A stretch of DNA of 64,000 bases from Huiozyma naganishii CBS 8797 (Eukaryota > Ascomycota > Saccharomycetes > Saccharomycetales > Saccharomycetaceae): assembly GCF_000348985.1 (NCBI RefSeq), contig NC_035923.1, positions 1,302,001 through 1,366,000 on the forward strand, read 5' to 3'. A program made the translations under genes and the position numbers. The notes under the pieces are model-generated. The model searched no databases. It was not told where the DNA came from and saw only the letters and a list, made by a program, of their open reading frames with translations. Positions 2,118 to 56,501 of the stretch are shown one piece after another (the stretch's first letter is position 1; each line of letters starts with the position of its first letter).

Positions 2118-5100
2118 CTACACTTTCAACCCGCTCGCAAGGGTCCGTTCAAGCCAATCGAGGGAGACACAGACCTCCAGGTTCTTGTCCCCCGTGGTCT
2201 CAGGGTGGCTGCCCTGTCTCAGGGCCTCCTCCGTGAGTAACTGCAGGGACACGAGTCGCGCGAGTACACGTTCCCAGTTGATGAACTCACGCAATGCCCG
2301 GAGGTCTGTCTTGTTGCTGCCCGTAGAGTTGACCACCACTTGCAGTACCTGTTGTATATGTGGGTCGTCCCCGTTCGACTTGGCGAGTCTTTCGATCTCT
2401 TCCACCACGTTCGAGTGGTACAAAGAGGATGGTGGGTTGCGTAGCAGTAATGACAGCGACGCAGTCAGGTAAAGTCTCATTATTGCGGGCAGCCCGCGGA
2501 CTTTCTCCGCCATACTCAACAAGTCGTCTCGCGACGTCAATTGCTGCAATGTTTCCATGGACATGACCATCGTGTCCGGTGGTGAGGGGGCGGCCCCCAC
2601 GGTGTTGCATTTCGTCTCCAAGTAATTCGACTGGCAGTACTTGACCGCGTCACGCAACAAACGCAGGATCCCAACAATATCGAGCCGCAGCTGGCAGAAG
2701 TGCTCGCTGGCCTCTTGTATGAAGGACTCGCTCATCTCTAAGCGTACTGTCCTGACGACTTGGAATTCCGCGGGGATTGAGTCCGCGGGGGCAAACTGCC
2801 ATTGGCTGCCATCGGTGGATTTCACCAGCGTGAACTCGCTCGTCAGCAGACTCCTCATTCTGAAAACGGAGAAGTTGTACAGTTGCTCGTACGAGTAGTC
2901 GTCGAAGGGGATGTCCAGGTACGTCAGTGAATCCAAGTAGTGGCTGTTCAAGTTGTCCCTCAGCAGGTTTGGGTTCGTAGAGATGACAACAAAGATCAGC
3001 TTGGAAATCTCACAGGAACTCCATTCGAACAGGTCGTTGAGCAAGTTCGTCCATTTATTGGCCAATAAATCAGCATCATCAACAACGATCACCGTCTGTC
3101 TCTTCGTATTCTCCCCCAACTTTGTAAAATACCGCTTCATCGCCATCTGCGCAACGTGCCCTGTCAGTTTCTCACCGGTCATTTGCTTCCATATGCTAGA
3201 GTACACGTCCTGTTTACCGGAATCAAGGAGCGACCTGTTCACGTTAACCAAGTCAAATATGCGCAACTCCTTGCACCTGCTCGACTTGGCGAGCTCCTCC
3301 ACAACACGCTGGATAATGGTGCTCTTCCCCGTGTTCGTCTTCCCACTGATGAACGCCGCCTTCGGCTCCTTTTTACGAAGCGAGTCGAACAGTTCCAGGT
3401 ACAGCCTCGCAAACTCCTTCGACCTCGCGGGCAACGAAACGTAGCTCTCTATCGTCTCTACGATGGACAAATCGTCGTTCAAGTTCCCGTTACCCTTCAA
3501 CCTGGAGAAGATCGTAGTTCCCTTTTCCCCAAGATCTGCAGGTCTCAGTTTACTCTCGAGCCCGGCGACATCGATCGAACTGTTCTCACTGGACATTACC
3601 CCATCGGATCCGCTTCTTGAGCCCTCGTCATCTTCCGACGCAGACGAGCTGCCCTTTACATCGTAGTCCTTCTTCAGTTTCTTGTACTTTTGCGTCAACC
3701 TCAGCCTGATCTCCCTCGCCTTTAACTCATCAAGTTTCCTTACAATCAAGGAATCATCCGTTGTCACACTGGGTGATTCAGGTTTACTCTCTTGAGCAGT
3801 TTCCTGCGTGGGCTCCTTCGGAGCTCCCTCGTAATCTGAGATTTCACTCAGTTCCGAGTCAGAACCGGCCATCACCGTCTTTCGTGCCTGCCTCGACTTC
3901 TTCCTCCTGAGGGCCTCTCTCCTGTGTGCAGCCTTCCGCTTCGCCCGCGAACTGTAAACTTGTTCGTCCACTTCCTGCTCCTCATCCTGATCAGCATTGT
4001 CTGGGGAGGACTCCTCGTGTGACACGGAGTGGTCATTGGGGACAACGAACCCGTGGTCTATGTCGCTCCCGCTTGAGCTCTGGATCTCATCCTCCGTGGG
4101 ACGGTCGTTTGCACTGGCAAACTCCTCTGGATCGCTTACATCGGAGGAGCTCTTGTTGTTATTGTTCAGGTCCTCTGATGTATCTGGTTCGCTGATGAAC
4201 AACGATTTACTGCTCTTGGGAGGTGTAGAGTCGGGGGCCGGGATCGCGGCCGAGCCCGAGGCTGAGACCGAGGTCGGGGCAGAACCGGTTTCAGCAGCAG
4301 ATGAAGATGCAGGTGCAGTGGCAGGTGGAGGTGAAGGTGCAGCGGCAATGTTATCGACTTGCTCTTCCTCCTGCTCCTGCTCTTTCTCCTGCTCTTGCTC
4401 TTTCTCCTGCTTCTGTTCCTGCTCCCGCTCCTGCTCTTTCCTCTGTTCCTGTTCCTGTTCCCGCTTCTGTTTCTCGTCGCCCTCGTTGGCACCCTTTATC
4501 CCAGTTGCCATAGGCACCGATGTCTTCTTCTTATCTCTTGGTTGCAAGATGGGTAGCTTCATTGGTGTCTGCACCGTCTGCACCGTCTGCACCGTCTGCT
4601 CCATGGTGTCTGACCCCTCGCGTTTGGCGAAGGGTTCACTATTACCGACCTCAATGGCCTTCTCGCGAATCCTGGGTCTGTGCGGGACACTTCCAGACTT
4701 CCCACTGGGCTTCGCTGGTGGGACGCTGAGTTTCTTGAGATGCTCATCAGACCGCTTCGGATCCATCATCTGTATCTTCTTGACCTCCTTGTAGATGTCG
4801 ATCCTGACGAAGTTCTCCGCTGTGGGTTCACAGATGTACCGAACAAAGAAGTCGTGATCTGGGCGGATAGCATCCCCCCGAGCGTCCCAGTCCGCCTTGG
4901 ACAGGATATTCGCGATGCCGATGAAGTCCCTCAGCCAAATCTCGGACAACTCCGCAGTCAAGTACAGCTCGCTCGCGTTAACCTCCGCGAAAAGCCGTTC
5001 GTGGAGGGACTCCATGGAGGGCCGTGTCTCCAGCAGCTCTGGAGCAAACTGCCTGTAGTATTTGACCGGTTTCAACTCAAAGGACCGCAGGTACGAGAAA

Positions 5101-5360
5101 GCCCATATTTCGGCGACGTTGTTCAGCGTGTTGAGCCGGATCTCGTGCACCAAGTACACGGAGTACGTCCCCGTCAACGCGTCGTGCGCGACCACACTGT
5201 CCCCACGGCCGAAACTCAACCCATCGGAGATCCGTTGCAAGTACACGTTCTCGACGGATCCGCCCTTCCTCGAGCGCCGCCGTGACCCGGTGATCACGTT
5301 CCCCTTCTCGTCCGTCACCAGCACCTGCCACCCGCGCAGAGCCTCGTTCGTCGTAGCCAT
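2118..5360 (-). CDS. SIR3: Sir3-type silencing protein (BAH + AAA-like, Orc1 paralogue)
   Basis: 1080 residues (S. cerevisiae Sir3 is 978). The N-terminus has the Sir3/Orc1 BAH domain, with GWQVLVTDEKGNVI, ISDGLSFGRGDSVV and IRLNTLNNVAEIW over residues 1-190; this domain binds nucleosomes. A long acidic and glutamine/glutamate-rich linker (about 230-600) includes a VQT triplet repeat and an EQ-rich run. An AAA-like module follows, with GKTNTGKS at 673-680 (a complete Walker A pattern) and VIVVDDAD around 761-764 (Walker B-like). A winged-helix-like C-terminus ends the protein. Order SEC39-RPS1-this gene-ECM7 matches YLR440C-YLR443W and marks it as SIR3 rather than ORC1. In yeast Sir3 spreads silent chromatin at telomeres and mating loci. 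Retention of a Walker A motif is notable, because S. cerevisiae Sir3 is thought not to bind nucleotide. Confidence 0.92.
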   Translation of the reverse strand: MATTNEALRGWQVLVTDEKGNVITGSRRRSRKGGSVENVYLQRISDGLSFGRGDSVVAHDALTGTYSVYLVHEIRLNTLNNVAEIWAFSYLRSFELKPVKYYRQFAPELLETRPSMESLHERLFAEVNASELYLTAELSEIWLRDFIGIANILSKADWDARGDAIRPDHDFFVRYICEPTAENFVRIDIYKEVKKIQMMDPKRSDEHLKKLSVPPAKPSGKSGSVPHRPRIREKAIEVGNSEPFAKREGSDTMEQTVQTVQTVQTPMKLPILQPRDKKKTSVPMATGIKGANEGDEKQKREQEQEQRKEQEREQEQKQEKEQEQEKEQEQEEEQVDNIAAAPSPPPATAPASSSAAETGSAPTSVSASGSAAIPAPDSTPPKSSKSLFISEPDTSEDLNNNNKSSSDVSDPEEFASANDRPTEDEIQSSSGSDIDHGFVVPNDHSVSHEESSPDNADQDEEQEVDEQVYSSRAKRKAAHRREALRRKKSRQARKTVMAGSDSELSEISDYEGAPKEPTQETAQESKPESPSVTTDDSLIVRKLDELKAREIRLRLTQKYKKLKKDYDVKGSSSASEDDEGSRSGSDGVMSSENSSIDVAGLESKLRPADLGEKGTTIFSRLKGNGNLNDDLSIVETIESYVSLPARSKEFARLYLELFDSLRKKEPKAAFISGKTNTGKSTIIQRVVEELAKSSRCKELRIFDLVNVNRSLLDSGKQDVYSSIWKQMTGEKLTGHVAQMAMKRYFTKLGENTKRQTVIVVDDADLLANKWTNLLNDLFEWSSCEISKLIFVVISTNPNLLRDNLNSHYLDSLTYLDIPFDDYSYEQLYNFSVFRMRSLLTSEFTLVKSTDGSQWQFAPADSIPAEFQVVRTVRLEMSESFIQEASEHFCQLRLDIVGILRLLRDAVKYCQSNYLETKCNTVGAAPSPPDTMVMSMETLQQLTSRDDLLSMAEKVRGLPAIMRLYLTASLSLLLRNPPSSLYHSNVVEEIERLAKSNGDDPHIQQVLQVVVNSTGSNKTDLRALREFINWERVLARLVSLQLLTEEALRQGSHPETTGDKNLEVCVSLDWLERTLASGLKV

Positions 5361-11130: not shown

Positions 11131-11664
11131 ATGACTGCCCAAGAAGCCCCCAAATGGTACCCATCCGAGGATGTCAGAGCTGCCAAGCAGACCAGAAAGG
11201 CCATCAGACCGCAGAAGTTGCGTGCGTCGTTGGTCCCAGGTACCGTTTTGATCCTGTTGGCCGGCCGTTTCAGAGGTAAGAGAGTCGTCTACTTGAAGCA
11301 CTTGGAGGACAACACCCTCCTGGTCTCCGGTCCATTCAAGGTCAACGGTGTCCCTCTAAGAAGAGTCAACGCCCGTTACGTCATCGCCACGTCTACCAAA
11401 GTCCCAGTGGCCTCCGTCAACGTCGAGAAATTCAACGTCGAGTACTTCGCCAGAGACGCCAAGCTGTCCAAGAAGGAGAAGAAGGAGGCTAACTTGTTTC
11501 CAGAACAGCAGAAGAAGGAAATCAGCGCCGCTAGAGTCGAGGACCAAAAAACCGTCGACAAAGCTTTGTTGGCTGAGATCAAGAAGACCCCACTGTTGAA
11601 ACAGTACTTGGCTTCGTCTTTCTCCTTGAAGAGCGGTGACAAGCCTCACTTGTTAAAATTTTAA
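11131..11664 (+). CDS. RPL6: 60S ribosomal protein L6 (eL6)
   Basis: 177 residues (176 in S. cerevisiae). It starts [19 protein letters not shown] and continues [21 protein letters not shown], nearly identical to yeast Rpl6. It is a structural protein of the large subunit. Codon use is strongly biased. Order VMA6-RPL6-(AGO1)-FPR4 matches YLR447C-YLR449W, so it corresponds to RPL6B. The reading frame is continuous from the ATG, whereas the S. cerevisiae RPL6 genes are interrupted by an intron a few codons after the start. Confidence 0.97.
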
Positions 11665-12288
11665 ATGCAGCAAGAGCAAGCACAGCAAGAAAACAGGTTC
11701 TTGTACTAGATAAAAAAGATGCAATAATAACATCATCATCATCATCATCGCCATCATGCATCGCCACTCACCCATCACCGCCCGCGTTACGTATATCAAT
11801 CTCTTTAGAAACCCACTAATCAATCAAATATAGCACTATAACATTATCAGTTCAGCAATAGAGAGCAAACACACTGTAGTAGAGGTTTATTACTGTAAAA
11901 ACTGCGCGGCGCTACCACAACACGGATCTTTCCCTTTTGGGAAGGAATATTAGAATTTGAATCGCATTGCTTTTTTTGTGTAAAAGTTGAAGATCGCTAT
12001 CAACAGAGAAGTCATTCGAAGAGACACTACAGTTGCGAGACTTAAGGGCACGGATGACGCACCTTCACGTAGAGCTACGAGGAGGTAGCTGGTCTGGATA
12101 CCGAGTTCGAGACTCTCTGTTTGTGTGTGTGCTTTTTTTTTTTTTTGTAGACGAACAGCGATAGGTATCTTTCCTCTGCTTCTGCTCAGACACAGGCTAC
12201 GTTGGATCCAGCTTTGTTCAGATAAGAAAAGCTTGTGAGACGCTCAAGAGACGCTCAAGAAGCACAGTTACTCTGGGTCAATTGAGAT
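11665..12288. other. RPL6 3' region and AGO1 promoter
   Basis: The RPL6 3' region has a short CAT run near 11730-11750. The AGO1-proximal part has a T tract of about 14 near 12135 and short direct repeats (GACGCTCAAGA) at about 12239-12260. No gene or strong regulatory motif is recognised. Confidence 0.5.
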
Positions 12289-15200
12289 ATGTCTGCTCCA
12301 GTTGGGTTTTCTGGCAGCGTGCCACCACCGCCTCCTGCCGTGGTTACTGACTCTGTGGCGAAGGGTGAGAAGAAGAAGAAGTCCAAGAAGCCAAAGGAGG
12401 ACGGTGCAGAGGGGGCGGAGAAGAAGAAGTCTAAGAAACCAAAGGATGATTCCCCTGGTTCTGCCGAAAAGAAGAAGAAATCTAAGAAACCAAAGGACGA
12501 TTCTCCAGGTAGCGCCGAGAAGAAAAAGAAGTCTAAGAAGGAGGATGGTGCAGAGGGGACTGAAAAGAAGAAGAAATCCAAAAAGGACGACTCTTTTAGT
12601 TCAACTGAGAAGAAGTCTAAGAAGGACGATTCTCCTAGTTCTACTGAGAAGAAGAAGAAGTCTAAGAAGGACGATTCTCCTAGTTCTACTGAGAAGAAGA
12701 AGAAGTCTAAGAAGGACGATTCTCCTAGTTCTACTGAGAAGAAGAAGAAGTCTAAGTCCAAGAGTAAGGGCGATGCTGTTGCCGGTGTCGCCGCTTCTCT
12801 TTCAGAGATGAGTATTGGGGACTCAGAAGCGGACAAATCAGTCGCTATTGAAACTGCACATGGAGCAGTGGAAGTGGACGGTATTGCCATGTCCGCTAAG
12901 GCTTTCGATATGACCGAAGTTAAGAGCGCCGAGGAGACTCCCAAATATGGCGCCAACGAGTACAAAGTCTGCGGTAGACTAGACTACGGTACTAAGGGTA
13001 CAAAGGTAGATGTGCTAACAAATCACCTCGTTCTCTCCTTGGGGGACGACGTCACAGGTGTGAAAAACAGCGAATTGGACCCATGGTGGAAATCAGCGTT
13101 CATTTTCACCTACCATATTGGTTTCAAGACTCCAGCTGCCCCACCTGCTAGAAATGGGCGCAGTATGCCACCTCCACCACCACTATCTAAGCCAAAGAAG
13201 TACGAATTGATCGAGGCTCTCTTCGCAGAGGACGAAACTCTGTACAAGTACAAGGACAGAATCGCCTTCAACGGTGAGGAGACTTTGTACTCACACGTTC
13301 CTCTAGAAGAATTCACTCTATTCGATGGATGTTGGGATATAAGTAACAAGCAGAAGAACAAGATCTCTGTCGTTGGTTTGAACTCGGGTAAAAAGACCCA
13401 GATCAATGAATTGGCTTCTCAAGTTGTTCTGAAATTCGTTTCAAAAGTAGGGCTGGCCGACATCTACAGAGGTACTTTGGGTAAAGTCCCAGAGGATCAA
13501 GAAGACAAAATGTCTGCTCCAGAAAAAGCCATTTTCTTATCCTTGCTTGGTGTCAAATTGATGCAAACTAATGACCCCATCTTCCAAGTCCATGGGAACA
13601 AATTCTTCGTTTTCAACAAATACTCGAGGACTACTCCGTTCCAAATGGGTGCGTACTTGATGCACGGGTTCACCGTTTCTCTGAGATACGCCTACGGGTC
13701 CGTTCTTTTGAACACCGTTAACGTTGCTATGCCATTCTACAAGCATACCAAATACCTACCAGGTGATCCTAAATTTAAGGAAGATGAGAAGACTCAGTTC
13801 TCATTGTTGGATTGGATCTTCGAGTGCTACCAAACTGCGGCCCTCGACAGAAACAGTAGAGGAGTCGATACTAAGGGCACCCCATCGGCGAACAGCATCA
13901 ACTTCTTCGTCGACAAGAACAACGATGTTAAAGATCTGTTGAAGGGACTGAAAGTGTACAGACCGTACATCAACTACAGTGTCAACCCAGATGGTACTTC
14001 TAAGCCACCAAAGAAACAAAAATCCAAGGGTATCGTCGGTTTCGCAAGAGAGACCGCAGACTCGCTAAAGTTCAACGTGACGCCAAGCGATGTTGCCAAC
14101 AAACTGGCCGTCGCAAACGAAAAGCCATTCAAGATGTCCATCACAGAATACTTCGCCAAGAAGTACAACATCAAATTGAAATATCCAGGTGTTAAGCTGG
14201 TCAGTCTAGGTGGCTCGAACGTCGTTCCACCAGAATGTTTGACTATTGTCCCAGGGCAGAAGCTAAAGGGTCAAATAAAGGACGAGAAAGCTGTGATCGA
14301 CTTCACGGCATTGAGACCCGGCGAGAAATTCAAGGCCATCAACAAATTGGCCTTGCCATTGATCAAGAAGGCGTTGACCCCAGACGAGGAAAAAGTTCAG
14401 GCGCCACACAATTCCGATTACACTTTCTTGAAAGTGCCATCTCGTGTTATCGACGCTCCAGTGGTTCAGTTCTCTAAGTCCACCGTTGAATACGTCGACA
14501 AACCCTTTGGAACAAAGGTTGCTGGCTCGAAAGTTCAACACCAGGAGACCAAGGGTAACTGGAACTTGGTTGGTCACGAATTCATCGAAACACCTAAGAA
14601 CAAGTTGACAATCAGACCAGTGTGTATTGGGGACTCCGACAGAGCGCCACCAGGCGACGTCTTGAACCAGATCAGAGAGAGTGTCCTAAAGTTTGCTTCC
14701 GATGTCGCCAAAGTTGGTGTCGATTTTGACGTTGCTGACAAGCCCGTCCTGATCAACAACTTCGACTCTCCAAGACGTAAAGTCTCAGGTTGTGGTGGTC
14801 GTGGCGGTCGCGGTGGCCGTGGTGGTCGTGGTGGCCGTGGTGGTTTCGGTGGACGTCCACAGGTGTCCTTTGAGATCACCCCAGGTGAGGAGGATCTATG
14901 CAACCTTCTGCAGAATGTCCCAGCTAACAGCTACGTTCTGTTCATCTTGCCAAAGGCTAACCAAGATACCGTTTATAACAGGTTGAAGTACCTGGCCGAC
15001 TTGAAGTACGGTGTTATCAACTCTTGTGTTCTATGGAACAACTTGAGGAAAAACTCTGCGCAGTACAACGTCAACGTTGTCATGAAGATGAACTTGAAAT
15101 TGCAAGGTGTGAACCATTCGCTAGCGAATGACGATTTGAAGTTGTTGATGGATGAGGCTACAGGGTTGCCATTCATGATTCTGGGTGCCGATGTGACACA

Positions 15201-16023
15201 TTACCCAGAGGAGGATCAAAACTCGATCTCTGCACTGGTCGGTTCCATTGACGGCAAATTCGCCCAGTTTCCAGGTTCCTACATGCTACAGGACGGTCCC
15301 GGTGAGGAGTCCATTGCTGGTATTGGCAACATGGTGTACGACCGGTTGAGAATCTATTCTGAACATAACATGGGCCAATTACCTCCAAAGATTCTGTTCT
15401 ACAGAGATGGTACCTCCGAATCCCAATTCTCAGAGATTGTAAAGGTCGAAGTGAAGGGTCTCAAGGAGGCTTTGAGGAAGTTCGGTTCGAAGTTGTTGGG
15501 TGGTAAGAAATACGATCCACCTGTGACTACTATCTCTGTCGTGAAGAGGAACCAAGTAAGATTCATGCCACTTCACGAGAACGCAGAAAATGGGAACTCG
15601 GAAAGTGTCGCTGTCCAATCCATGGGCAACGTCATGCCCGGTACCGTGGTCGACAGGGGGATCACCTCCTCTGCCCATTTCGATTTCTTCCTGCAATCGC
15701 AACAGGCTTTGAAGGGTACCGGTGTCCCCTGTCACTACTGGTGTATCTACGACGAGAACGAGTTCACCTCGGATTACTTGCAACAGGTCACACACAGTCT
15801 GTGCTACGTTTTCGGCAGGTCCAGCACGAGTATCAAAGTGGCGTCGCCCGTGTACTACGCGGACTTGCTCTGCGAGCGTGGTGCCCAGTACTTCAAGGCG
15901 AACTTCAACGCCGCGAAACAAGAGTTTGTCAAGACGAACAAGCAGAAGGACGCCGTGCTACCCGCCGGTTTGCTTCTACCCGCTGTCAACAAGAAAGTCC
16001 AGGACATCATGTATTACATCTGA
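12289..16023 (+). CDS. AGO1: Argonaute, budding-yeast type (catalytic)
   Basis: 1244 residues, close to the 1251-residue Argonaute of Vanderwaltozyma (Kluyveromyces) polyspora. Layout: a proline stretch near the start; a lysine-rich repetitive tail (about 25-160) including three identical 15-residue units; N, L1 and PAZ regions (about 215-650); L2/MID with an RGG-rich insertion (about 834-853); and a C-terminal PIWI domain. PIWI residues in place are D968 (GADVTHYP), E1007 (GEES), D1040 (YRDGTSES) and D1192 (PVYYADLL), a full DEDD slicer tetrad of the fungal type. MID shows the phosphate-pocket pattern Y-x-x-L-K followed by a conserved lysine (MKMNLKLQG). In RNAi-positive yeasts Ago1 uses Dcr1-made siRNAs against transposons; DCR1 is not in this window. 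It lies between RPL6 and FPR4, a slot that is empty in S. cerevisiae. Codons are biased like those of a well expressed gene. Confidence 0.96.
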   Translation: MSAPVGFSGSVPPPPPAVVTDSVAKGEKKKKSKKPKEDGAEGAEKKKSKKPKDDSPGSAEKKKKSKKPKDDSPGSAEKKKKSKKEDGAEGTEKKKKSKKDDSFSSTEKKSKKDDSPSSTEKKKKSKKDDSPSSTEKKKKSKKDDSPSSTEKKKKSKSKSKGDAVAGVAASLSEMSIGDSEADKSVAIETAHGAVEVDGIAMSAKAFDMTEVKSAEETPKYGANEYKVCGRLDYGTKGTKVDVLTNHLVLSLGDDVTGVKNSELDPWWKSAFIFTYHIGFKTPAAPPARNGRSMPPPPPLSKPKKYELIEALFAEDETLYKYKDRIAFNGEETLYSHVPLEEFTLFDGCWDISNKQKNKISVVGLNSGKKTQINELASQVVLKFVSKVGLADIYRGTLGKVPEDQEDKMSAPEKAIFLSLLGVKLMQTNDPIFQVHGNKFFVFNKYSRTTPFQMGAYLMHGFTVSLRYAYGSVLLNTVNVAMPFYKHTKYLPGDPKFKEDEKTQFSLLDWIFECYQTAALDRNSRGVDTKGTPSANSINFFVDKNNDVKDLLKGLKVYRPYINYSVNPDGTSKPPKKQKSKGIVGFARETADSLKFNVTPSDVANKLAVANEKPFKMSITEYFAKKYNIKLKYPGVKLVSLGGSNVVPPECLTIVPGQKLKGQIKDEKAVIDFTALRPGEKFKAINKLALPLIKKALTPDEEKVQAPHNSDYTFLKVPSRVIDAPVVQFSKSTVEYVDKPFGTKVAGSKVQHQETKGNWNLVGHEFIETPKNKLTIRPVCIGDSDRAPPGDVLNQIRESVLKFASDVAKVGVDFDVADKPVLINNFDSPRRKVSGCGGRGGRGGRGGRGGRGGFGGRPQVSFEITPGEEDLCNLLQNVPANSYVLFILPKANQDTVYNRLKYLADLKYGVINSCVLWNNLRKNSAQYNVNVVMKMNLKLQGVNHSLANDDLKLLMDEATGLPFMILGADVTHYPEEDQNSISALVGSIDGKFAQFPGSYMLQDGPGEESIAGIGNMVYDRLRIYSEHNMGQLPPKILFYRDGTSESQFSEIVKVEVKGLKEALRKFGSKLLGGKKYDPPVTTISVVKRNQVRFMPLHENAENGNSESVAVQSMGNVMPGTVVDRGITSSAHFDFFLQSQQALKGTGVPCHYWCIYDENEFTSDYLQQVTHSLCYVFGRSSTSIKVASPVYYADLLCERGAQYFKANFNAAKQEFVKTNKQKDAVLPAGLLLPAVNKKVQDIMYYI
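12616..12750 (+). repeat. Three perfect 45-bp tandem repeats in AGO1
   Basis: Units 12616-12660, 12661-12705 and 12706-12750 are identical at the DNA level and encode residues 110-154 of AGO1 (SKKDDSPSSTEKKKK per unit). Degenerate copies lie upstream from about 12430. Perfect DNA identity points to recent expansion or concerted homogenisation. Confidence 0.93.
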
Positions 16024-16426: not shown

Positions 16427-17701
16427 ATGGCCGACATGTTACCGCTTGCTACCTACACTTTGAATGTAGAACCATACGAGCCCACTCCAGCTGTCAGCTT
16501 TGACAAGCCTGTCACTATCAGGATCACCATGGCTGCGATCGACCCAGAGGCCTTCGATGACGAGAAGAAGCCATCGACGCTGAGGATGATTAAGAGAAAC
16601 CCGGATTTCGAAGAGGATGACGATGACGAGCAGGCAGACAGTGAAGAGGAGGAGGAAGAAGAAGAGGAGGAGGAGGAGGAGAAAGACCAGAGCAAGAGTG
16701 CTGGGAAGAAGGGTAAGAAGCAGTCGAGTCAGAAGAAACAGGAAGAGGAAGAAGAAGAGCAAGAGGAGGACGAAGAGGACAGCGACGATGAATTGTTGGA
16801 GGACAACGAGTTCGAAGAGTGTGTTCTCTTGACTTTGTCTCCAGAGACCTCGTTCCAGCAGGCTATCGACATCACAATTGCCCCAGAGGAGGATATCCAG
16901 TTTGTTGTCACCGGTTCTTACACCGTTTCGCTGACCGGGAACTACGTCAAGCACCCATTCGACACTATAATGGACTCTGAGGACGACGAGTGTGATGACG
17001 AAGACTATGACAGTGAGGAGTACGACGACCAACTGATCCAGGACGAGTACCAAGACGACGACGACGAAGAAGAAGAAGAACTGAGCGACGAATTGGACGA
17101 CTTGGAGGACGCCAGCGACGTCGAGGGCCGCATTGAGGAGCTGGTCGCGAAGGACGAGCACAAGAGCAACAAGAGGAAGCAACAAGACGAGGAGGAGGTC
17201 CCAGCTAAGAAGTCCAAGAAGGAGGCCAAAGAGGAAAAGAAGGTCAAAGAGGAAAAGAAGGCCAAAGAGGAAAAGAAGGCCAAAGAGGAAAAGAAGGCCA
17301 AGAAGGTCGAGTTCAAGAAAAACCTAGAGGAGGGCCCAACGAAGAAGAAGGAGGAGGCGAAGCCAAAGGCCAAAGTTCTACAGGGCGGCATCGTCATCGA
17401 AGACCGCGTCACCGGTAAGGGCAGCCAGGCAAAGAAGGGAACTAGAGTCGGTATGAGATACATCGGGAAATTGAAGAACGGTAAAGTCTTCGACAAGAAC
17501 ACCAACGGGAAGCCATTCGTCTTCAAATTGGGCCACGGTGAAGTCATCAAGGGATGGGATATCGGTGTTGCCGGTATGGCCGTCGGCGGCGAGCGCAGAA
17601 TCATCATTCCATCTGCCTACGCTTACGGGAAGTCCGCTCTGCCAGGGATCCCAGCCAACTCCGAATTGACATTCGACGTCAAACTGGTCTCCATGAAATA
17701 A
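16427..17701 (+). CDS. FPR4: Nucleolar FKBP-type prolyl isomerase Fpr3/Fpr4
   Basis: 424 residues (392 for Fpr4, 411 for Fpr3). An N-terminal nucleoplasmin-like domain ([21 protein letters not shown] onward) is interrupted by long Glu/Asp runs, followed by a lysine-rich KEEKKA repeat tract (about 265-290) and a C-terminal FKBP domain (about 320-424) with [25 protein letters not shown] and [12 protein letters not shown]. Fpr4 is a histone chaperone and proline isomerase acting on histone H3 tails in the nucleolus. Position between RPL6/AGO1 and HMG2 matches YLR449W (FPR4). Confidence 0.93.
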
Positions 17702-18004: not shown

Positions 18005-21000
18005 ATGGTCAGTAGTTTTGGCAGTCCCTGCTTTGCGACCGTGCTGCGGCCGTTTGCCTGCTTAGCGCGGCAGTCGGCTAAATACCCGATTCACGTTATA
18101 GTTGCTACGCTGCTGCTCTCATCTGTGGCGTACCTCTCCTCTGTGCAGTCATATTTGAAGGATTGGAAGACGCATTTGGAGACAGATTCAGTGCCCTTCA
18201 AATGGGGGGACGAGAACCTTTTCAACGAATGTACACACTACTACAAAAGTTCGAACGAGGACGACTGGCACCTCGTCGCCTCATCAGATACTCAGTTTCT
18301 GTTCCCTTATCACGAATACTTCCTTTATCCACTTAACTTCCAGAATTACGGGCTGGACGCGGCACTACCTGAACTCCCCAATGAAGTGTACAGGTCCGGT
18401 AATATTGCATATAGCTTGTTAGAAAGCTTTGAACTGCCTGGTATTCTGACCTCAGACGACGGCACCCAATGGAAGTCGCTAGCAAGTAAAGACACACTGT
18501 TGAAGTTCGAACACCAGTTCCTGAAAACTGTCGAAGACATCATGGAGACAAACCATCTCGAATTCACAGACCTTTTGATTGTGTCCACAACGCTGATAAC
18601 GCTACTTTACACACTTTTCAACCTTTTCAAACAGATGCAGAAGATTGGTTCAAAATTATGGCTAGGGCTTTCAACCCTCATCAATTCGCTGTGTGCCTTT
18701 TTCTTGGCACTGTATACCGTTCAATGTGTCATCCAGACCCAGGTACCAGTAGTCACTCTCATCCAAGGTATTCCCTTTTTGATTATTATAATAGGGTTCA
18801 AAAATAAGATTAACATGGCATCTTACACAATGAAAAGATTCGGGATCATCAATATATCCACAAAGATTACATCAGACAAAATCATATCCGACGCTGTTGC
18901 CAACGAATGTATACCACTTGTAAGAGAGTATGCGATTGCCATCGTCACTTTTCTGGGTTGCATTCTGTGCTTGAATTCCATGAACAGATTAGTGGACTTT
19001 TGTTTTCTTGCAATCTTCGTGCTCCTCTACGATTTTTTATTGACAGTTACTTTCTACGCAGCCATACTGTCTTTGAAGATGGAAATAAATACCGTCCATA
19101 GATCCGCGATTATCAAGCAAACATTGGAAGAAGATAGCACACCTCTAGCAGCATCGGTCACTTTAGTTGAACCAAAAAAAAGAAATAAGACCTCAATATT
19201 GACATCAAACAGTACCATTATCTTTGCCAAGTCTTTGATCATATTTTTTTTGCTCTTCATCAACCTTTACAATGTTAATATGCGGTGGGTTCTCAGTACA
19301 GCGCGTGCTGTCTATTCCAGTTTCACGATGGAGGAACTTCCCTCCTTTATTTCAGTGAAGAATAATCCCATGTTCGCCCACAGCGTTTTGATCTCAATTG
19401 CACCTACACAATACTACGAGCCGACTCAAGGGCATAACATGTCCGAAAACATCACATGGCTACTACTAAAAAAACTTGCATCCGCCATTGCCGACAGATT
19501 TATCAGCAAAGTCCTATTTGTTATCCTAATATTAAGTCTTTCAACGAACGTCTACCTACTTAACGCTGCTAAGGTCCATACAGAATACACAGTGAACGCC
19601 TTTCACAAAAGTCTTCTATCTGAGGAAATTTCCAAGCAAACACCAAAGGCTGTATCGCGTGAATCTGCTCTATCTACAGTGAAAAGAGTGCTTTCTCCAC
19701 GCCCGGTCACAGTAACTCCACCGTCTTTCTCCCTTGTGATGAGTGATGAAGAGGATTCCAGTGAGAATAGTGATTCAAGCAGTACATTATCCGACACGTC
19801 TCTGACAAGTGTCGAGGCAGTCATGAAAGCGGGTAAGCTCTCGCTGCTGAGAAATAATGATATTACGGGACTTGTAATGGCTAATAAGCTGCCCTTATAC
19901 GCCCTCGAAAAGGAGTTAGGTAACAAATTAAGGGCTGTCGAGATTCGGAGGAAGGCTATTTCGATCTTAGCGAGGTCGCCTGTTTTGAATTCGAACCGTG
20001 TACCTTTCAAAAACTACGATTATGATCGTGTCTTTGGTAGGTGTTGTGAAAACGTTATTGGTTACATTCCCATACCTCTTGGCATAATTGGACCGCTCGT
20101 AATTGATGGTACACCTTTTCACATCCCGATGGCAACTACCGAGGGATGTTTGGTCGCATCTGCAATGCGCGGATGTAAAGCCATCAACGCAGGTGGCGGG
20201 GCTGTTACAGTTTTGACCAGAGACGGCATGACAAGAGGGCCCTGTGTCAGGTTTCCATCGTTGAAGAGATCTGGTGCTTGCAAGCTGTGGCTAGATACGA
20301 CAGAGGGTCAGGACTGTATCAAAAATGCATTCAACTCAACTTCAAGATTTGCAAGATTACGGCATATTAAAACAGCACTAGCCGGCGATCTATTATTTAT
20401 CAGATTTAGCACTACGACAGGGGATGCGATGGGTATGAATATGATCTCCAAAGGTGTCGAACATTGTTTAAACCAAATGATTGAAAATTTTGGATGGGAA
20501 GACATGGAAATAGTTTCCGTTTCTGGTAACTATTGTACTGACAAGAAGGCCGCTGCCATCAATTGGATTGAGGGGCGTGGTAAGAGTGTCGTTGCGGAAG
20601 CAGTCATCCCTGGTGAAGTTGTCAAGAGTCTTTTGAAGAGTGATGTTGAGGCCCTGGTGGACTTAAATATCACAAAAAACCTTGTTGGGTCCGCCATGGC
20701 TGGGTCAGTGGGCGGCTTCAACGCCCATGCAGCTAACATTGTGACTGCGCTATTTATTGCTTCAGGGCAAGACCCTGCCCAGAATGTCGAAAGTTCAAAT
20801 TGTATCACTTTGATGAGCGAGGAGAATGGGAATCTGAAAATCTCGGTTACAATGCCCTCAATTGAGGTGGGGACTATTGGAGGCGGTACTGTCTTAGAAC
20901 CCCAAGCTGCTATGCTTGATCTTTTAGGGGTTCGCGGTCCACATCCGACTCATCCTGGGGAAAATTCACAACAACTAGCCAAAATTGTTGCATGTGCGGT

Positions 21001-21121
21001 CATGGCAGGTGAACTGTCTCTTTGCGCTGCATTAGCAGCTGGTCAGTTAGTGCAGAGCCATATGACTCATAATCGGGCAACGTCCGTCAAACCACCAGAA
21101 AATGGCAAAAAATCGTCTTGA
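18005..21121 (+). CDS. HMG2: HMG-CoA reductase
   Basis: 1038 residues (1045 for S. cerevisiae Hmg2). The N-terminal half has multiple membrane segments with a sterol-sensing-like region; a Ser-rich linker near 570-610 leads to the catalytic domain. Catalytic residues are in place: E713 (TTEGCL), K847 ([11 protein letters not shown]), D923 (GQDPAQN) and H1022 (SHMTHNR). NADPH-site motifs GDAMGMNM and GTIGGGT are present. The ER-membrane enzyme makes mevalonate, the committed step of sterol synthesis. Position after FPR4 matches YLR450W, so it is called HMG2; whether the genome holds a second gene cannot be seen here. Confidence 0.95.
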
Positions 21122-21252
21122 AAGGAAACCTGCTGGAAATGAACCTTAGTTAGGGCTTGCTTGGTCGCGACGAACATGCCCAAAAGATACAAAGAAGCAT
21201 AATTGATACCACTATTTACTAATTGCATAAAATATTTATTAAATAAAGAAAA

Positions 21253-21608
21253 TGTTGAATAGGGTCTTGTTCGCCGTGGCTATTCATTGTAGTAGAGTAA
21301 AGAGATGTTTTAGTTCAGGTATGACTTCTGGTATATACTTAATATATAAGTATATGGTTCGATGATCTCTTCTATATTGTCACAGATAGAAGGATCAATT
21401 CATTCGATGTAGTTAGGCTTTATATACGTGAGAATTTGCTCAGAGTCAATGGTGTGACTTTTCACTTTCTCACTGTGGTGAATACTTCCACACTTGTGGC
21501 ATCGTTATTTGTCTCGTTAACATTTGTGTCTTTTATCAAGTGTGTGTCCTGTTTATGCCTATGATGATATCTTATCACCCTTATCATATTCATTTTCTAT
21601 ATCCAGCA
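21253..21608. mobile_element. Solo LTR 1 with target-site duplication GAAAA
   Basis: The element starts TGTTGAATAGGGTC and ends TATATCCAGCA, and is flanked by the 5-bp direct repeat GAAAA at 21248-21252 and 21609-21613. It aligns over most of its length with the LTR at 22379-22703; shared blocks include GTTCGATG-TCTCTTCT, TTTATATA-GTGAGAATTT and a block of about 45 bp before the 3' end (TTTATGCCTATGATGATATC). TG...CA ends, length (356 bp) and duplication are those of a Ty1/copia-type LTR. There is no internal region, so the element was lost by LTR-LTR recombination. Confidence 0.88.
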
Positions 21609-22009
21609 GAAAATGTGCGTGACGAAAATGTAAGAGAAAGACTGACTTCTAGGGAACTATGCATACCAAGTCATCAAGTCTCCTGCTTGCTACAAGATAC
21701 ATTTGCATCTACTTCACATTGCTTTCAGATGCATCCTTACATAACTGTATTATATAAAAGCCCAGAGAAAATCATCTTAATGCAATCTCTTTGACAACAA
21801 TTCAGAAAATTTCGATAATGCGCTACTTACCGTTATTCATTCTAGCAGAGCAATCTATACTGCTGTCTCTCTTGGCGCTCCAAAGAACGCCAGCACTTTT
21901 CGGAAACAATTCCATTATTTCGAGTATTGCATTTAAAATAAGCTCAGTAATCTAGCCAGCGAAAAAGTTTCCCGTGTTGAACACAACAGGGTATGAAAAA
22001 TGCTGTATA

Positions 22010-22081
22010 TGTTGGATATCGTCTTTCTCGCCATGACTTTCCATTTTAAGTAGAGATTGAGAAATGACTTAGGTTCGACTA
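22010..22081. mobile_element. LTR fragment (5' end only)
   Basis: TGTTGGATATCGTC at 22010 and the following 65 bp match the first 65 bp of the LTR at 22379 with few differences. The match then jumps from CTTAGG to GTTCGA, consistent with a deletion between short AGG repeats, and is lost afterwards. No target-site duplication can be assigned. Confidence 0.75.
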
Positions 22082-22378
22082 GTTTATGTAACTCTCCTAT
22101 ATAATGCGTATACGGGGGAGGAGCTTCCGGTGCTCGGCAGTGGCCGTCTGCTGGAAGTCCCTGCCACACCTCAAACATGCATAGTGCAGCATCATTCTTA
22201 GCTTCCAGCACTATATTCCAGGATAAACCATTTTGCATTCACCAAGAAGATATTGTTTATTATTATTCTGTACTTTATTTGTTTGGTAAAGTATGAATTA
22301 TCAATGAAATAATTCTACATAAAACTATAAATAGCAAATCAACTATTAAATGCTTATGTGGACAACTATTCTTTTAAA

Positions 22379-22703
22379 TGTTGGATATCGTCTTTTTCGC
22401 CCTGACTATCCATTTTGAGTAGAGCTTAAGAAATGACTTAGGTAAAGTTGATTTCTTAGTTATACTATTTAAGTATAAGGTTCGATGGTCTCTTCTGTAT
22501 GTTCAGAAAGTTAGAGACCAATACTATGGATATAACTAGTCTTTATATATGTGAGAATTTCCCAGATATTTTCAGAGAAGGATTATGTTTCATAGTGCGA
22601 CATATTAACTTCTTCATGGCATTAGTGTTTTACGTTTCATATTCTGTTTATGCCTATGATGATATCTTATCACCCCTATAATAGTCATTTTCTATATTCA
22701 GCA
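22379..22703. mobile_element. Solo LTR 2 with target-site duplication TTAAA
   Basis: A 325-bp element from TGTTGGATATCG to TATATTCAGCA is flanked by the perfect direct repeat TTAAA at 22374-22378 and 22704-22708. The ends are TG...CA, and it belongs to the same family as the LTR at 21253 and the fragment at 22010. Solo state implies past recombination between the two LTRs of a full element. Confidence 0.92.
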
Positions 22704-23083
22704 TTAAACAACTCTACTTAATTGAGCTCCCCATGCAATAGTTATATCCGGACACAGCTTCCCATGCTATACCTCCAACTGTATGGTTTTTTGCAGCGCA
22801 GATCATTGAAATATAAAACTCGAACTGTAAAATTTTGTAAGATTCCAATAATGTTTAATAATCCCTATATGTTGACTGACTAACTCCTCTTCCAATAAAA
22901 ACTCATATTGCCCTAGGTGCCATCTAACTTGGGAACAACTTCTTTTCTTATCTTATGTCTTTATACAGAGTATATAGAAAAAGACCGACCTCCAGAAGTC
23001 CAGAATCTTACGCAGATTCAACTAAAAATACAACTGATTTGTTACGAATTATGCAGATTATTTGTTTTAATCTAATTTAAAGC

Positions 23084-41790: not shown

Positions 41791-44700
41791 TCAGAATGCG
41801 TCCTCAGCGACGTCGTCGTGGAAGTACTTCCCCTCCAAAGTGGGCTTAATAATCCCAACTCTGACGACGAAATCACCGAAGTGTTCACCTTCCTCTCTTT
41901 CGAAAACCCACCTCTTGAACATCGGCTTCAAGATGTCCAGGATATCGTCATCCTTGATCGAAGCTTTATACAATTTGTTCAGTCTCTCACCGTAGTAACC
42001 ACCACCAAGCATCAAGTTGTACGTGTGTGGGGCCTTCCCAATCAACGCTATTTCCGCTAACCATGGACGAGAACAACCGTTGGGGCACCCTGTCATTCTC
42101 AAAACAATAGAGTCATGACGTAGACCGTACTCTTCCAGAACATCCTCAATTTGAGTGATTAGAACGGGTAGGTAACGTTCGGATTCGGCCATAGCCAAAC
42201 CACACGTTGGCAACCCAACACACGAGGAGGAGGATTGTCTTAGCCCGCTCAGTTCCGTGTTATCCAGGGAGTACTTCTTCATCAACGCCTTGACCGCATC
42301 CAAGTGCTCGTCCTTGATACTGGAGATTACAACGTGCTGGTTACCAGTAAGCCTGAAATTACCGGAGCCCTGCTTCTGCATCAACTCGGCAATCTTGCGT
42401 AGACCCGTCTTCTGTGCCCGGTCCGGTGTGTCCTCCACCCTACCGTTCTCGATGAACGCGGTGAAGTGGTTCAATCCCGTCTCGTCCTTGACCCAGCCGA
42501 AGTAGTCGATGTTTGACTTGATCTCGAATGGCTGCTCTGGGTCGAACTTGTGGCCCCAAAGCTCCTCAACCTTCTCCTTGAAAACCTCCTTCGTCATGTC
42601 GTCAATGGTGTACTTTAACCGCGCGTGCTTACGGTCCGTTCTGGACCCGTTGTCCCTCTGGATTATCATGACAGCCTCGATGGCAGCCACGACCTCCTCT
42701 GGCGCGACAAACCCAAGCAGCGAACCTGTTCTGGGGTACGTCTTCTTGTTGTTGTGTGTGGTACCCATACCACCACCTGTGTACATGTTGTAGCCCTTGA
42801 CGATGTCCGTCGCAGGGTCCACAATGGCAATCAAACCGACATCGCTCGACCAAACATCGACGTCGTTGTAGGGAGGGACCGTAATGTTGACCTTGAACTT
42901 CCTTGGTAGGTACACGGGGCTGTAAAGCGGCTCGATGTCGACCAGGGAGTTGCCGGCCACCAGAGCCTTCTTCGTTGGTTGGGCCGCCTTCTCTGTTGCC
43001 GAAATCTCTTCCCAGTTGGAGTCGTAGTCTCTCTCATCAGGACCCTGCAGCCAGATTTCATAGTAAGCAGTCGTCTTTGGTAGAAAGTGTTCCGAGATCT
43101 TAGCACCCATTTCAGAAACTTGTTCGTGAACCTTAGCATTGGCTGGCAACGCTGAACACATAACATTTCTGTTAACGTCACCACAAGCGGCCAAAGTGTC
43201 CATCAAAGTAGAGTTCATTGCCCTGATGCTATGTTTCAAGTTTTTCTTCAATATACCGTGAAGTTGGAATGTAGCTCTCGTGGTTATCTTTAAAGTACCG
43301 TTACCGTCTTCATCAGATAGTCTGTTGACAGCCAACCACTGTTCTGGGGTAGCAACCCCGCCTGGTAACCTGACTCTCGACATGAAACTGTACAGCGGCT
43401 CCATACCTTGAGCTTTACGAATATCTCTGATATCACGGTCATCTTGCATGTAACAACCATGGAACTTCGTCAATTGCTGATCATGTGCATGGATTGCCAA
43501 AGTAGATTGATCGTTCAAACCTTCCACAATTGTACCTCTTAAGAAATCTGAGTTGATTTTCATATCTTCGTTGGTGTAAGGTTTGTCTTCAGGAACATCA
43601 GCGCCAGAAACACCGAGAACTTCCCACAACTGCTTCTCCCACTCAGCGTATCCAGTTTGATACCCATCAGCGTCTTGGTCATCACCGAGCCCTAGGGGGA
43701 CGATTGGATTGGCAGTCAACAATTCTAACCGGGCAAACAGGTCCTTCGCAGGTTTGTTGTAATAACGAGCATCCTCCTTCCGTGGCCAGTATTGGGAGTC
43801 ACCAAGACCAAAAACAGAGAAGTTCAGCGAGGCTAGGTCCACGTCTAAGGAGCCTTTCAACTCCTCCCAGAAGGTCTTCCCGTCCTGTGGGAATTCACCT
43901 TGCCCCGCGGTAGACGTGACAAGATCACGTTTTCTTCGCCTGCTAGATCCTCCAGAATGATATCGTCCATGGAGAGAACCGTGGACTTCAGACCTCTTGC
44001 AGAGGCACGATTGCCCAGTCTCTTGGCCAAGGCAGTGGCGCTGCCACCGTCCGACGCGTAGTAGATGTGCAGCGGCGGACCGGACACGCCCTTCCAGCAG
44101 CTGGTCGTACGCGGCTTTGGCGCGGTTCTCAACCTTTCTCGAGATGACATCGCTGGCCGACGCCTCAATGTCTCTGGCCAGTTCGGGGGTCCTCTTGGTC
44201 AACAGCGACAGCTTGTTCTCGCGGTCCAGGAAAGACTGCAATTCCTTTCTGATGACGGCGGAGTCCAGCGTGAACGCGGCGTCGTCCGCGTCCTTGGCAG
44301 GGTTGTACCGGTAAAGCGGCCAGTACCCGCACTCAACAGCGTTCTTCGTCTCCCGCAGCACCTCCAGCGGCGTGTCCTTCTCAGACGAGTAAGGCAGGTA
44401 GGCTAGCACCACGGAGGGTCCGTTGAACGCAGAGGCCTCTAGAAACGCGGCAAGCAGCTGTGTGTACGAGGAGTACACCGCGACGGACGCGACGTACACG
44501 TCGTGGAAGTTCATGGCGTAGAGCCCCACGTTCTTCTTGTGGCGCGGGTTGGCCCTGCTCTTCTCGTACGGTTCTGAGTCGATGATCAGCAAGTTGATGT
44601 TCTTCTTGGACGCCAGGACCTGGTGGACCCCGGAGTGGCCCAGGTCGTAGGACCAGGCGTCGGAGCCGACGAGCCAGTGCGACTTGAACTGGAAGCACTC

Positions 44701-46065
44701 CTCGCGCGGCGCCACCTTCAGCAGGTCCAGCGCAACGGCGGAGTCCTGGTTCGACTGCAAAATGTTGAAGATCTTGGCGGCGACCTCGTTGGCTGCGCCG
44801 AGCTCCGCATCGCCCAGGTTCGCGTCGTGAAGCGCCACCCACTGGGACAGGAGTTGCACGAGCTCCCCAGCGTCCTCGGTGTGGTACAGTGAGGGGTCGA
44901 GCGACTTCTTGACAAGGGCGACCAGCTCGCCTCTCGCTTCGTCTTGTCTCAAGAAAGAGCCAAACCCGTACTCTGGTGCGGCCACGTTGGCCGTGTCGCT
45001 GCCGTACTCGTTGATGATGTCCAGGTTCGTGGAGAACAACTCATGCAGCACCTTCAAGTATGCGGTTTCCAGTTTCACGACGTTGGCCACGGACTCGGCG
45101 AATTGAGTCGCCGCTGGAGAAGTGGTTGGCTTTCCTAGGTACAGGTGTTGATCTGGGTTATCACTCCTGACGTTGTCCACGATCTTTTGTAAAACAGTCT
45201 TGTCATTTTGCTCCAATACACCAAGGTTAGTCAAGACGACCTGGTCTATATTCTTTTGGGCCAAAATACCGAAATCTTGAAAGATGTCTAGGAGCAATGG
45301 GGAAAACCCCGTTTGTGTTTCATTGGACCGTTGTAGGACCACGATCTTAGTGATTGTGGATGGGAGTGTGGAAACGAATGCCTCGAATTTCCATGGACGA
45401 TACGTCTTTATATTCAATAGCAGAACTTTTAAACCGGGTGCAAACTCGGCCAATTGTGAACCGTATGGAGAGAGATTAATAACCAAGACGGTAGGTTCTG
45501 CAGGGGATGCTAAGACATCAAATGGAGCGACTGCAGTTTCAACGGTCTCTTTGTCCAAGTCTGGTAATTTCAATTCATCTTGTAAAGTTTGTTCGGAGGC
45601 CCTTACGAAATCGATAAAATGGAACACGGGGGTTGCAGTCTTTAAAGCAATCTCATATGCAGAGGCACCGTTTTCTGCCACGTCATCCAAGCTATAAGAG
45701 ACGAATGTCGGGAAATCCAAATCTTTTAATGCTGGGATCACGGAGTAGTCCTGTAAATCCAAGTCAACATTGATCACGACAGGGTACCCTCTCAGAGTGT
45801 ACAAGTGTGGAAGACCCTTCAATACAGAAGTCTCATCGGCAAACACACTGGTCAGAGTATGCTTATCGGCGTTAGCGGCGATTGTACCAAATGGATCCTG
45901 CGTTTGCAACAATCTCGTGCAATTGGGCCCAATCTCATACTGCGTCGCTACTGAGCTCTTAGTGGGCGCCACGTAATAACTCGCTGAACCGGTCACCAGG
46001 CTCGAGCGCAAGTCTACCAACTCCTCGAGGACCTGTTTCAAGGTCAATGCGGTAGTCAGTGTCAT
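41791..46065 (-). CDS. MET5: Sulfite reductase beta subunit, copy 1 (with compensated frameshifts)
   Basis: 1424 residues from ATG 46063-46065 (1442 in S. cerevisiae). The order is an N-terminal pyruvate:ferredoxin-oxidoreductase-like region, a flavodoxin-like domain, and a C-terminal sulfite reductase hemoprotein domain with the Fe4S4-siroheme cysteines (SSSSCVGLPTCGLA and MTGCPNGCSRP). With Met10 it reduces sulfite to sulfide in methionine synthesis. Two places are out of frame relative to copy 2 and yeast Met5: an extra base near 44086 with a missing base near 43921 scrambles about 55 residues of the flavodoxin-like domain, and an extra base near 42974 with a missing base near 43004 scrambles about 10. 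Both pairs restore the frame. They look like consensus errors; otherwise this copy is damaged. Confidence 0.93.
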   Translation of the reverse strand: MTLTTALTLKQVLEELVDLRSSLVTGSASYYVAPTKSSVATQYEIGPNCTRLLQTQDPFGTIAANADKHTLTSVFADETSVLKGLPHLYTLRGYPVVINVDLDLQDYSVIPALKDLDFPTFVSYSLDDVAENGASAYEIALKTATPVFHFIDFVRASEQTLQDELKLPDLDKETVETAVAPFDVLASPAEPTVLVINLSPYGSQLAEFAPGLKVLLLNIKTYRPWKFEAFVSTLPSTITKIVVLQRSNETQTGFSPLLLDIFQDFGILAQKNIDQVVLTNLGVLEQNDKTVLQKIVDNVRSDNPDQHLYLGKPTTSPAATQFAESVANVVKLETAYLKVLHELFSTNLDIINEYGSDTANVAAPEYGFGSFLRQDEARGELVALVKKSLDPSLYHTEDAGELVQLLSQWVALHDANLGDAELGAANEVAAKIFNILQSNQDSAVALDLLKVAPREECFQFKSHWLVGSDAWSYDLGHSGVHQVLASKKNINLLIIDSEPYEKSRANPRHKKNVGLYAMNFHDVYVASVAVYSSYTQLLAAFLEASAFNGPSVVLAYLPYSSEKDTPLEVLRETKNAVECGYWPLYRYNPAKDADDAAFTLDSAVIRKELQSFLDRENKLSLLTKRTPELARDIEASASDVISRKVENRAKAAYDQLLEGRVRSAAAHLLRVGRWQRHCLGQETGQSCLCKRSEVHGSLHGRYHSGGSSRRRKRDLVTSTAGQGEFPQDGKTFWEELKGSLDVDLASLNFSVFGLGDSQYWPRKEDARYYNKPAKDLFARLELLTANPIVPLGLGDDQDADGYQTGYAEWEKQLWEVLGVSGADVPEDKPYTNEDMKINSDFLRGTIVEGLNDQSTLAIHAHDQQLTKFHGCYMQDDRDIRDIRKAQGMEPLYSFMSRVRLPGGVATPEQWLAVNRLSDEDGNGTLKITTRATFQLHGILKKNLKHSIRAMNSTLMDTLAACGDVNRNVMCSALPANAKVHEQVSEMGAKISEHFLPKTTAYYEIWLQGPDERDYDSNWEEISATEKAAQPTKKALVAGNSLVDIEPLYSPVYLPRKFKVNITVPPYNDVDVWSSDVGLIAIVDPATDIVKGYNMYTGGGMGTTHNNKKTYPRTGSLLGFVAPEEVVAAIEAVMIIQRDNGSRTDRKHARLKYTIDDMTKEVFKEKVEELWGHKFDPEQPFEIKSNIDYFGWVKDETGLNHFTAFIENGRVEDTPDRAQKTGLRKIAELMQKQGSGNFRLTGNQHVVISSIKDEHLDAVKALMKKYSLDNTELSGLRQSSSSCVGLPTCGLAMAESERYLPVLITQIEDVLEEYGLRHDSIVLRMTGCPNGCSRPWLAEIALIGKAPHTYNLMLGGGYYGERLNKLYKASIKDDDILDILKPMFKRWVFEREEGEHFGDFVVRVGIIKPTLEGKYFHDDVAEDAF
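42193..43161. repeat. MET5 near-identity island A, copy 1
   Basis: 969 bp nearly identical to 51861-52829 at a constant offset of 9668. Sequence on both sides is clearly diverged between the two genes, so the edges are sharp. Apart from one or two substitutions, the differences I see are single-base indels. Confidence 0.92.
43595..45184. repeat. MET5 near-identity island B, copy 1
   Basis: 1590 bp nearly identical to 53263-54852, again at offset 9668. I see only a handful of substitutions plus the two single-base indels noted for copy 1. The segment 43162-43594 between islands A and B is diverged from its partner but has no net length change. Confidence 0.92.
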
Positions 46066-55688: not shown

Positions 55689-56501
55689 TGCAGTGTCTGT
55701 GCGGTACCTGAGTCTGGTGTTGTTGCAGGCAAGTAAAGGGTCAGCATCAAACGATCCGTCCTCACCTTGTGCCTGTATATATATGTATGCGTCTAGGAAG
55801 ATGCAACACAACAACAACTGTGTGTGTGGTAATGCCATCAACACCTTCTTGAAGGCGATGAGAGAGATACTCGACAACTGCCGCCTCTACGTCCAAACTG
55901 TGTCTACCATGTGGCATTGGTACAACTTGGTGCAAACTGTGGAACGCGCAGCCACAATGGCCGTGCAAAACAATAGACAACGAAGGCAGCACCGTTCAAC
56001 AGCCTCAACGTTCAATTGAGGTGCGAGATCGTTGAAAACCGGCTGCGGGAACCGCTGCCCTGAAGAAGGACCGCGCGTTGTAGTCACAGCCCCGTACGAC
56101 TAGTCATACCGGCGTGCGCTTGGGAAGAGACATACTAGGTGCAAATTTCACAGATAATCCACAGAGAGAAACTGGGAGAGCAGCAGACAGGCAGCCATCC
56201 GTGTGTTACTGGTGCTAAACCGTGGCAAGAGAATCAACGTGATGGGAACGCTGCCACATCTTGAACACCGTCTTGCTGATTAGCTCACATTCTTCTGCTG
56301 GATCTCGATGACTGCAAAAGAGGAAAATAAAAAAGTGAAATAATAATGAGAGATATTAGCATTATGTAAGAGATCGTTGCATTGAATGTGGCACAAAGTG
56401 TCGAATTTGCTCTCTGGTGTGCAGTCAACAGTTGAATTTTTACCGAGGAAGGGGCGCAATTTGTTGGTTTACTTCAATTGTACAGTGTACCAGTGCTCGA
56501 T
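55689..56501. other. Divergent MET5 copy 2 / IML1 promoter region
   Basis: 813 bp between divergent starts. The MET5 side has Met31/32 motifs (separate entry); the IML1 side is AT-rich. Short frames crossing it look like chance. No RNA gene is recognised. Confidence 0.6.
55934..55942 (+). promoter_or_regulatory. Met31/Met32 site upstream of MET5 copy 2
   Basis: AAACTGTGG on the plus strand, about 250 bp upstream of the copy 2 ATG and in the opposite orientation to the copy 1 site. A near match, AAACTGTGT, lies about 40 bp closer to the gene near 55894. The surrounding promoter sequences of the two copies are otherwise unalike. Confidence 0.7.

Follow-up and report, generated by a model that had tools for sequence, protein, structure and literature searches.

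The 64,000-nucleotide stretch of the Huiozyma (Kazachstania) naganishii CBS 8797 genome analyzed here (the window) carries an Argonaute gene, AGO1, flanked by a ribosomal protein gene, RPL6, and a gene of FPR3/4 type. We describe this gene, the place it occupies, and the Dicer-family loci elsewhere in the genome with which it may act in RNA interference (RNAi), one of which encodes a Dicer paralogue whose catalytic residues appear to have been lost. All genome searches covered 10,845,821 bases in 13 contigs, which are cited below by number (C3, C4 and so on).

An intact Argonaute gene

The gene and its parts, all on the forward strand, are as follows.

12289..16023, +, AGO1, a single uninterrupted open frame of 1244 codons (list of open reading frames (ORFs), Pfam and solved-structure match)
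12419..12756, +, lysine-rich N-tail, encoded by tandem repeats with units of 45 bp and 51 bp (repeat analysis)
13084..13455, +, AGO_N domain, residues 266-389 (Pfam, 188.9 bits)
13744..14037, +, fungal Ago_N_1 domain, residues 486-583 (Pfam, 154.6 bits)
13927..14277, +, PAZ match, residues 547-663 (Pfam, 33.9 bits against a cut-off of 28.8)
14788..14856, +, RGG-coding repeat of 9-bp and 18-bp units (repeat analysis and alignment)
14935..15894, +, Piwi domain, residues 883-1202 (Pfam, 229.2 bits, E 9.1e-68)
15190..15192, +, slicer residue D968 (read directly, and alignment)
15307..15309, +, slicer residue E1007 (read directly, and alignment)
15406..15408, +, slicer residue D1040 (read directly, and alignment)
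15862..15864, +, slicer residue D1192 (read directly, and alignment)

N, PAZ and PIWI domains are united in one protein, and all four Pfam matches lie above cut-off and far beyond chance. The full slicer set named by the initial annotation was confirmed by direct reading, and 13 of 14 aligned Argonautes share it unchanged; the remaining one (P0013) ends upstream of all four residues. The closest solved structure, KpAGO (4f1n; Ago1 of Vanderwaltozyma, or Kluyveromyces, polyspora), matches residues 218-1244 with 1391 bits and shares all domains, the slicer set and the RGG insert, although identity is 58%, and the solved construct is without most of the tail, such that the tails are not comparable. 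The Argonautes of Naumovozyma dairenensis, Tetrapisispora phaffii and Torulaspora globosa are 52, 47 and 57% identical to AGO1. The database search that listed them scored 7978 candidates and included neither N. castellii Ago1 nor AGO1's own record, so a species missing from it cannot be taken to lack the gene. The profile search of the contigs returned a single Piwi match, and residues 221-1244, used as query against the genome, detected no second Argonaute stretch at E<=1.

The N-tail comprises 231 residues, 26% of them lysine. A long lysine-rich tail had been presented as a property of budding-yeast Argonautes, which holds for this protein but not as a general trait; among the aligned Argonautes it is frequent, with nine of the 14 carrying tails of 118-279 residues (14-26% lysine), whereas five have 19-23 residues. 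Four of these short tails measure 19-20 residues, including that of T. globosa (19 residues, no lysine repeats), and the one of 23 belongs to the solved-structure construct. The RG-rich insert precedes the PIWI match as in KpAGO, and at least two RG pairs occur in 12 of 14 rows, with one in T. phaffii and none in truncated P0013. Two long ORFs that overlie the tail, 12255-12890 (-) on the opposite strand and 12446-12811 (+) in a different frame, are by-products of the repeats and not genes.

A locus probably older than the genome duplication

The neighbours on which the history of the locus turns are three.

11131..11664, +, RPL6, left neighbour of AGO1, with an ohnologue on C5 (Pfam; sister-track comparison)
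16427..17701, +, FPR3/4 (nucleoplasmin-like/FKBP), right neighbour of AGO1 (Pfam)
18005..21121, +, HMG-CoA reductase, with a C5 ohnologue at 50% identity (Pfam; sister-track comparison)

Gaps of 624 bp (RPL6 to AGO1) and 403 bp (AGO1 to FPR3/4) separate the genes. No other full-length FPR3/4 was found in the genome, where two further matches span the FKBP part alone. The flanks are the counterparts of YLR448W and YLR449W of Saccharomyces cerevisiae, in which RPL6B and FPR4 are adjacent with no AGO1 between them. The initial annotation had described AGO1 as inserted at this point, while also allowing that the window preserves the ancestral locus, and it proposed a comparison with other genera. 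In each of the three species for which both tags were obtained, the Argonaute adjoins an FPR gene by locus tag: HG536_0C06030/HG536_0C06040 in T. globosa, NDAI_0D03150/NDAI_0D03160 in N. dairenensis, which has a second FPR elsewhere (NDAI_0J02830), and TPHA_0B01610/TPHA_0B01600 in T. phaffii. These FPR tags come from the best 120 of 1680 matches. T. globosa belongs to a lineage that diverged ahead of the whole-genome duplication. Within H. naganishii, ORC1, the RPL6 ohnologue (91%) and the HMG-CoA reductase ohnologue lie on the C5 sister track, and neither an AGO nor an FPR match was found in the 10 kb of it examined. Because the track in the window kept both AGO1 and FPR while the C5 stretch examined has neither, AGO1 very probably stands beside FPR3/4 at its pre-duplication place, its copy on the sister track having been lost, and serves as effector of the budding-yeast RNAi pathway. 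Of the two origins first considered, it is thus the ancestral locus that is borne out. Such an Argonaute, in such a location, is ordinary for an RNAi-positive budding yeast, and the adjacency of AGO and FPR marks where the loss of AGO1 can be sought in RNAi-negative relatives.

Dicer genes and a probable RNAi pathway

The RNase III profile search returned four matches (C10:116276, C4:979781, C10:528528 and C3:31978). The first is RNT1 (549 aa); the third, an RNase-III-like protein of 238 aa that falls below the PF00636 cut-off and above that of PF14622, is presumably a mitochondrial ribosomal protein. The match on C4 is the canonical budding-yeast DCR1 for which the initial annotation had proposed a search. 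Its product (661 aa) comprises Dicers_N, RNase III and two dsrm stretches, so that a non-canonical Dicer, with one RNase III domain plus double-stranded RNA-binding domains (dsRBDs), stands alongside RNT1. It scores 331 bits against K. polysporus Dcr1 (3rv0), with which it shares Dicers_N, the one RNase III domain, the dsRBD and the active-site residues, and from which it departs by ordinary sequence divergence, the solved chain reaching the first dsRBD only. The active-site residues, taken as the set E, D, D, E, are kept in alignment.

Ty-type reverse transcriptase sequences gave seven matches in the genome, some of them partial. As AGO1, DCR1 and these sequences are all in place, H. naganishii has the core components described in Naumovozyma castellii. 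By analogy with studied relatives, Dcr1 would bind long double-stranded RNA (dsRNA) as adjacent dimers and cut it into small interfering RNAs (siRNAs) of ~23 nt, which Ago1 would load in order to slice RNAs of matching sequence through its D/E/D/D site. Transcripts of Ty elements and of subtelomeric regions are likely substrates; the siRNAs of N. castellii map mostly to transposons and Y' repeats (PMC7528652, PMC5499181).

A conserved Dicer paralogue without its active site

An intact AGO1 at its ancestral place is expected; the novelty is found beyond the window, in the fourth RNase III match, and is accompanied by a further Dicer-family locus on C7.

C3:30184-32631, -, KNAG_0C00210, Dcr1 paralogue of 815 aa (RNase III match at C3:31978)
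C7:770911-771510, -, truncated Dicers_N ORF of 199 aa (Dicers_N 129 bits, the best of three in the genome)

The C3 protein is 100% identical to database entry KNAG_0C00210 of H. naganishii CBS 8797, and its gene sits between VAC17 and MRC1. Pfam matches to Dicers_N (105.8 bits), RNase III (36.4) and dsrm (41.5) all exceed their cut-offs; compared with DCR1, the Dicers_N score is higher (106 vs 81 bits) and that of RNase III lower (36 vs 70). With 141.7 bits to KpDcr1, and 27% identity to DCR1 over 473 columns, the protein is by its sequence a member of the Dcr1 family by descent. Along its full length it aligns with four proteins from the database (853-901 aa, 37-38% identity); the search that found them scored 7995 candidates and missed even the DCR1 of the same genome, and so gives no measure of rarity. 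In all five rows both active-site glutamates are lost, the first being Q or K and the last K, while the first aspartate is kept in one row and the second in three. The RNase III active site is accordingly lost, and KNAG_0C00210 is predicted not to be a catalytic Dicer.

What has been conserved is the remainder of the protein. Identity to the four relatives is 64-67% in dsRBD2, 54-58% in the N-domain, 51-54% in dsRBD1 and 47% in dsRBD3, as against 39-42% in RNase III and 21-26% in the linker; none of the other four folded domains is as weakly conserved as the former catalytic one. A single clade (100/100) unites the five dead paralogues, its stem is 1.1 changes per column long, and the tree does not place it with respect to the two catalytic Dcr1 proteins. 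A structure model, poor overall (mean predicted local distance difference test score (pLDDT) 43.1, predicted template modelling score (pTM) 0.24, five sequences) and used for the order of helices and strands only, has alpha-beta-beta-beta-alpha units at residues 254-314, 615-677 and 743-804, one of which Pfam matched.

Tentatively, these features would suit a two-part Dicer, in which catalytic Dcr1 is accompanied by a conserved dead partner that keeps the N-domain, has one dsRNA-binding fold more, and tunes dicing or Ago1 loading; we regard this as the likeliest function for the paralogue, though as a specific reading it is possible rather than probable. KNAG_0C00210 might bind dsRNA jointly with Dcr1 via the shared N-domain, and either mixed dimers, or the places taken by the dead paralogue in a cooperative array on dsRNA, could set cutting frequency or siRNA length, or pass siRNAs to Ago1. 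Product length in budding-yeast dicing is thought to stem from neighbouring Dicer dimers, and the siting of cuts through adjacent Dcr1 dimers is reviewed in PMC10328071 and PMC8138440. If the proposal is true, mixed Dcr1/KNAG_0C00210 dimers should nick one strand, and dead dimers within an array should lengthen the products. The dead paralogue would moreover allow a direct test of what a non-cutting Dicer does, in a yeast that has a single Argonaute and a single active Dicer. Candida albicans Cdl1, described as inactive, offers a precedent, likened here by description and not by sequence. Among the literature matches listed, titles and the starts of abstracts mention no dead Dcr1 paralogue in Kazachstania.

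On C7, the truncated ORF is followed in another frame by a dsRBD-like stretch that contains stops, and the 9 kb around the Dicers_N locus yielded no RNase III match. We rejected it as a whole Dicer on these grounds, and the locus reads as a truncated or decaying Dicer-family gene. The three Dicer-family loci lie close to contig ends (13-15 kb on C4, 30-33 kb on C3, 9 kb on C7), and genes that we take to be CHA1-like occur near both the C3 and C4 loci; together, these positions and neighbours may point to subtelomeric duplication.

Silencing neighbours and alternative histories

A second silencing gene lies upstream of AGO1.

2118..5360, -, SIR3, with BAH and AAA domains (Pfam and structure-chain matches; ORC1 separate on C5)

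In single-domain entries, the BAH domain matches SIR3 (269 bits) better than ORC1 (218). Counting against this identity, full-length ORC1 is the best match overall (334 bits), as the matches include no full-length SIR3 chain, and a P-loop motif is retained. For C5 ORC1, the first 589 of 872 residues give 549 bits with ORC1 and 135 with SIR3. The protein encoded in the window is best read as SIR3, distinct from C5 ORC1; an undivided, pre-duplication ORC1 was considered and is ruled out by the separate gene on C5. The distance from SIR3, put at about 7 kb in the initial annotation, measures 6929 bp from ATG to ATG. A SIR4 homologue is also present in the genome.

Several observations weigh against an inherited AGO1 serving in a working pathway. 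No AGO/FPR tag pair was obtained for V. polyspora or N. castellii among the matches listed, and the comparison across species covers the FPR flank. A search of the genome for an RNA-dependent RNA polymerase gave no match, but as none of 14 controls matched either, absence is not established by it. Finally, the dead and truncated Dicer-family loci imply that parts of the family have decayed in this genome. Inheritance from before the duplication nonetheless accounts for more than its competitors. Arrival of AGO1 between its two neighbours by transfer or transposition, within this lineage, would fit the adjacency of RPL6B and FPR4 in S. cerevisiae; that gap is accounted for by loss of AGO1 in Saccharomyces, and the neighbouring tags in three other genera, with Torulaspora predating the duplication, together with the C5 sister track, largely refute an insertion, which we consider highly improbable.

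The proximity of SIR3 had led to the suggestion that two silencing systems seldom found together are here near neighbours. This is not supported here, as SIR3 and the SIR4 homologue coexist with AGO1 and DCR1 in H. naganishii; other RNAi-positive post-duplication yeasts are taken to possess SIR3 as well. Joint action or regulation of both systems might be read from the 6.9 kb between the genes and from the presence of SIR4, yet five genes intervene, and because ORC1 and RPL6 occupy the matching places on C5, the closeness is explained by old gene order; a functional tie is the least credible of the alternatives. Somewhat less remote, though still improbable, is a pathway in decay, in which intact AGO1 and DCR1 see little use, and the Dicer paralogues that are dead or truncated represent steps toward loss. 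The paralogue without an active site and the C7 remnant with its stops would agree with this, as would the patchy distribution of RNAi genes in the yeast family (PMC5499181). Against it, AGO1 and DCR1 retain the catalytic residues examined, and conservation of the dead paralogue extends to four other proteins, being highest in dsRBD2 and the N-domain, which is unexpected under decay.

Further observations in the window

RPL6 in the window is without an intron, while its C5 copy (C5:807990-808511) is preceded, upstream of the match, by GTATGT at 334 bases and TACTAAC at 64 bases, and has a stop at the second codon. These signals fit an intron after the first codons, suggesting precise intron loss in the window gene. 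Beyond HMG-CoA reductase, on its right, lie genes that resemble by eye what we take to be the YJR127-YJR140 block of S. cerevisiae, and a rearrangement junction probably lies near positions 21122-23083 or thereabouts. Further right, two sulfite-reductase-like genes, presumably of MET5 type (41791-46065 and 51459-55838, both -), share blocks of 98-100% DNA identity amid stretches of 70-77%, with diverged ends, as might arise from gene conversion. Each also has a short stretch in which its protein departs from the other copy, as if by two offsetting frame changes.

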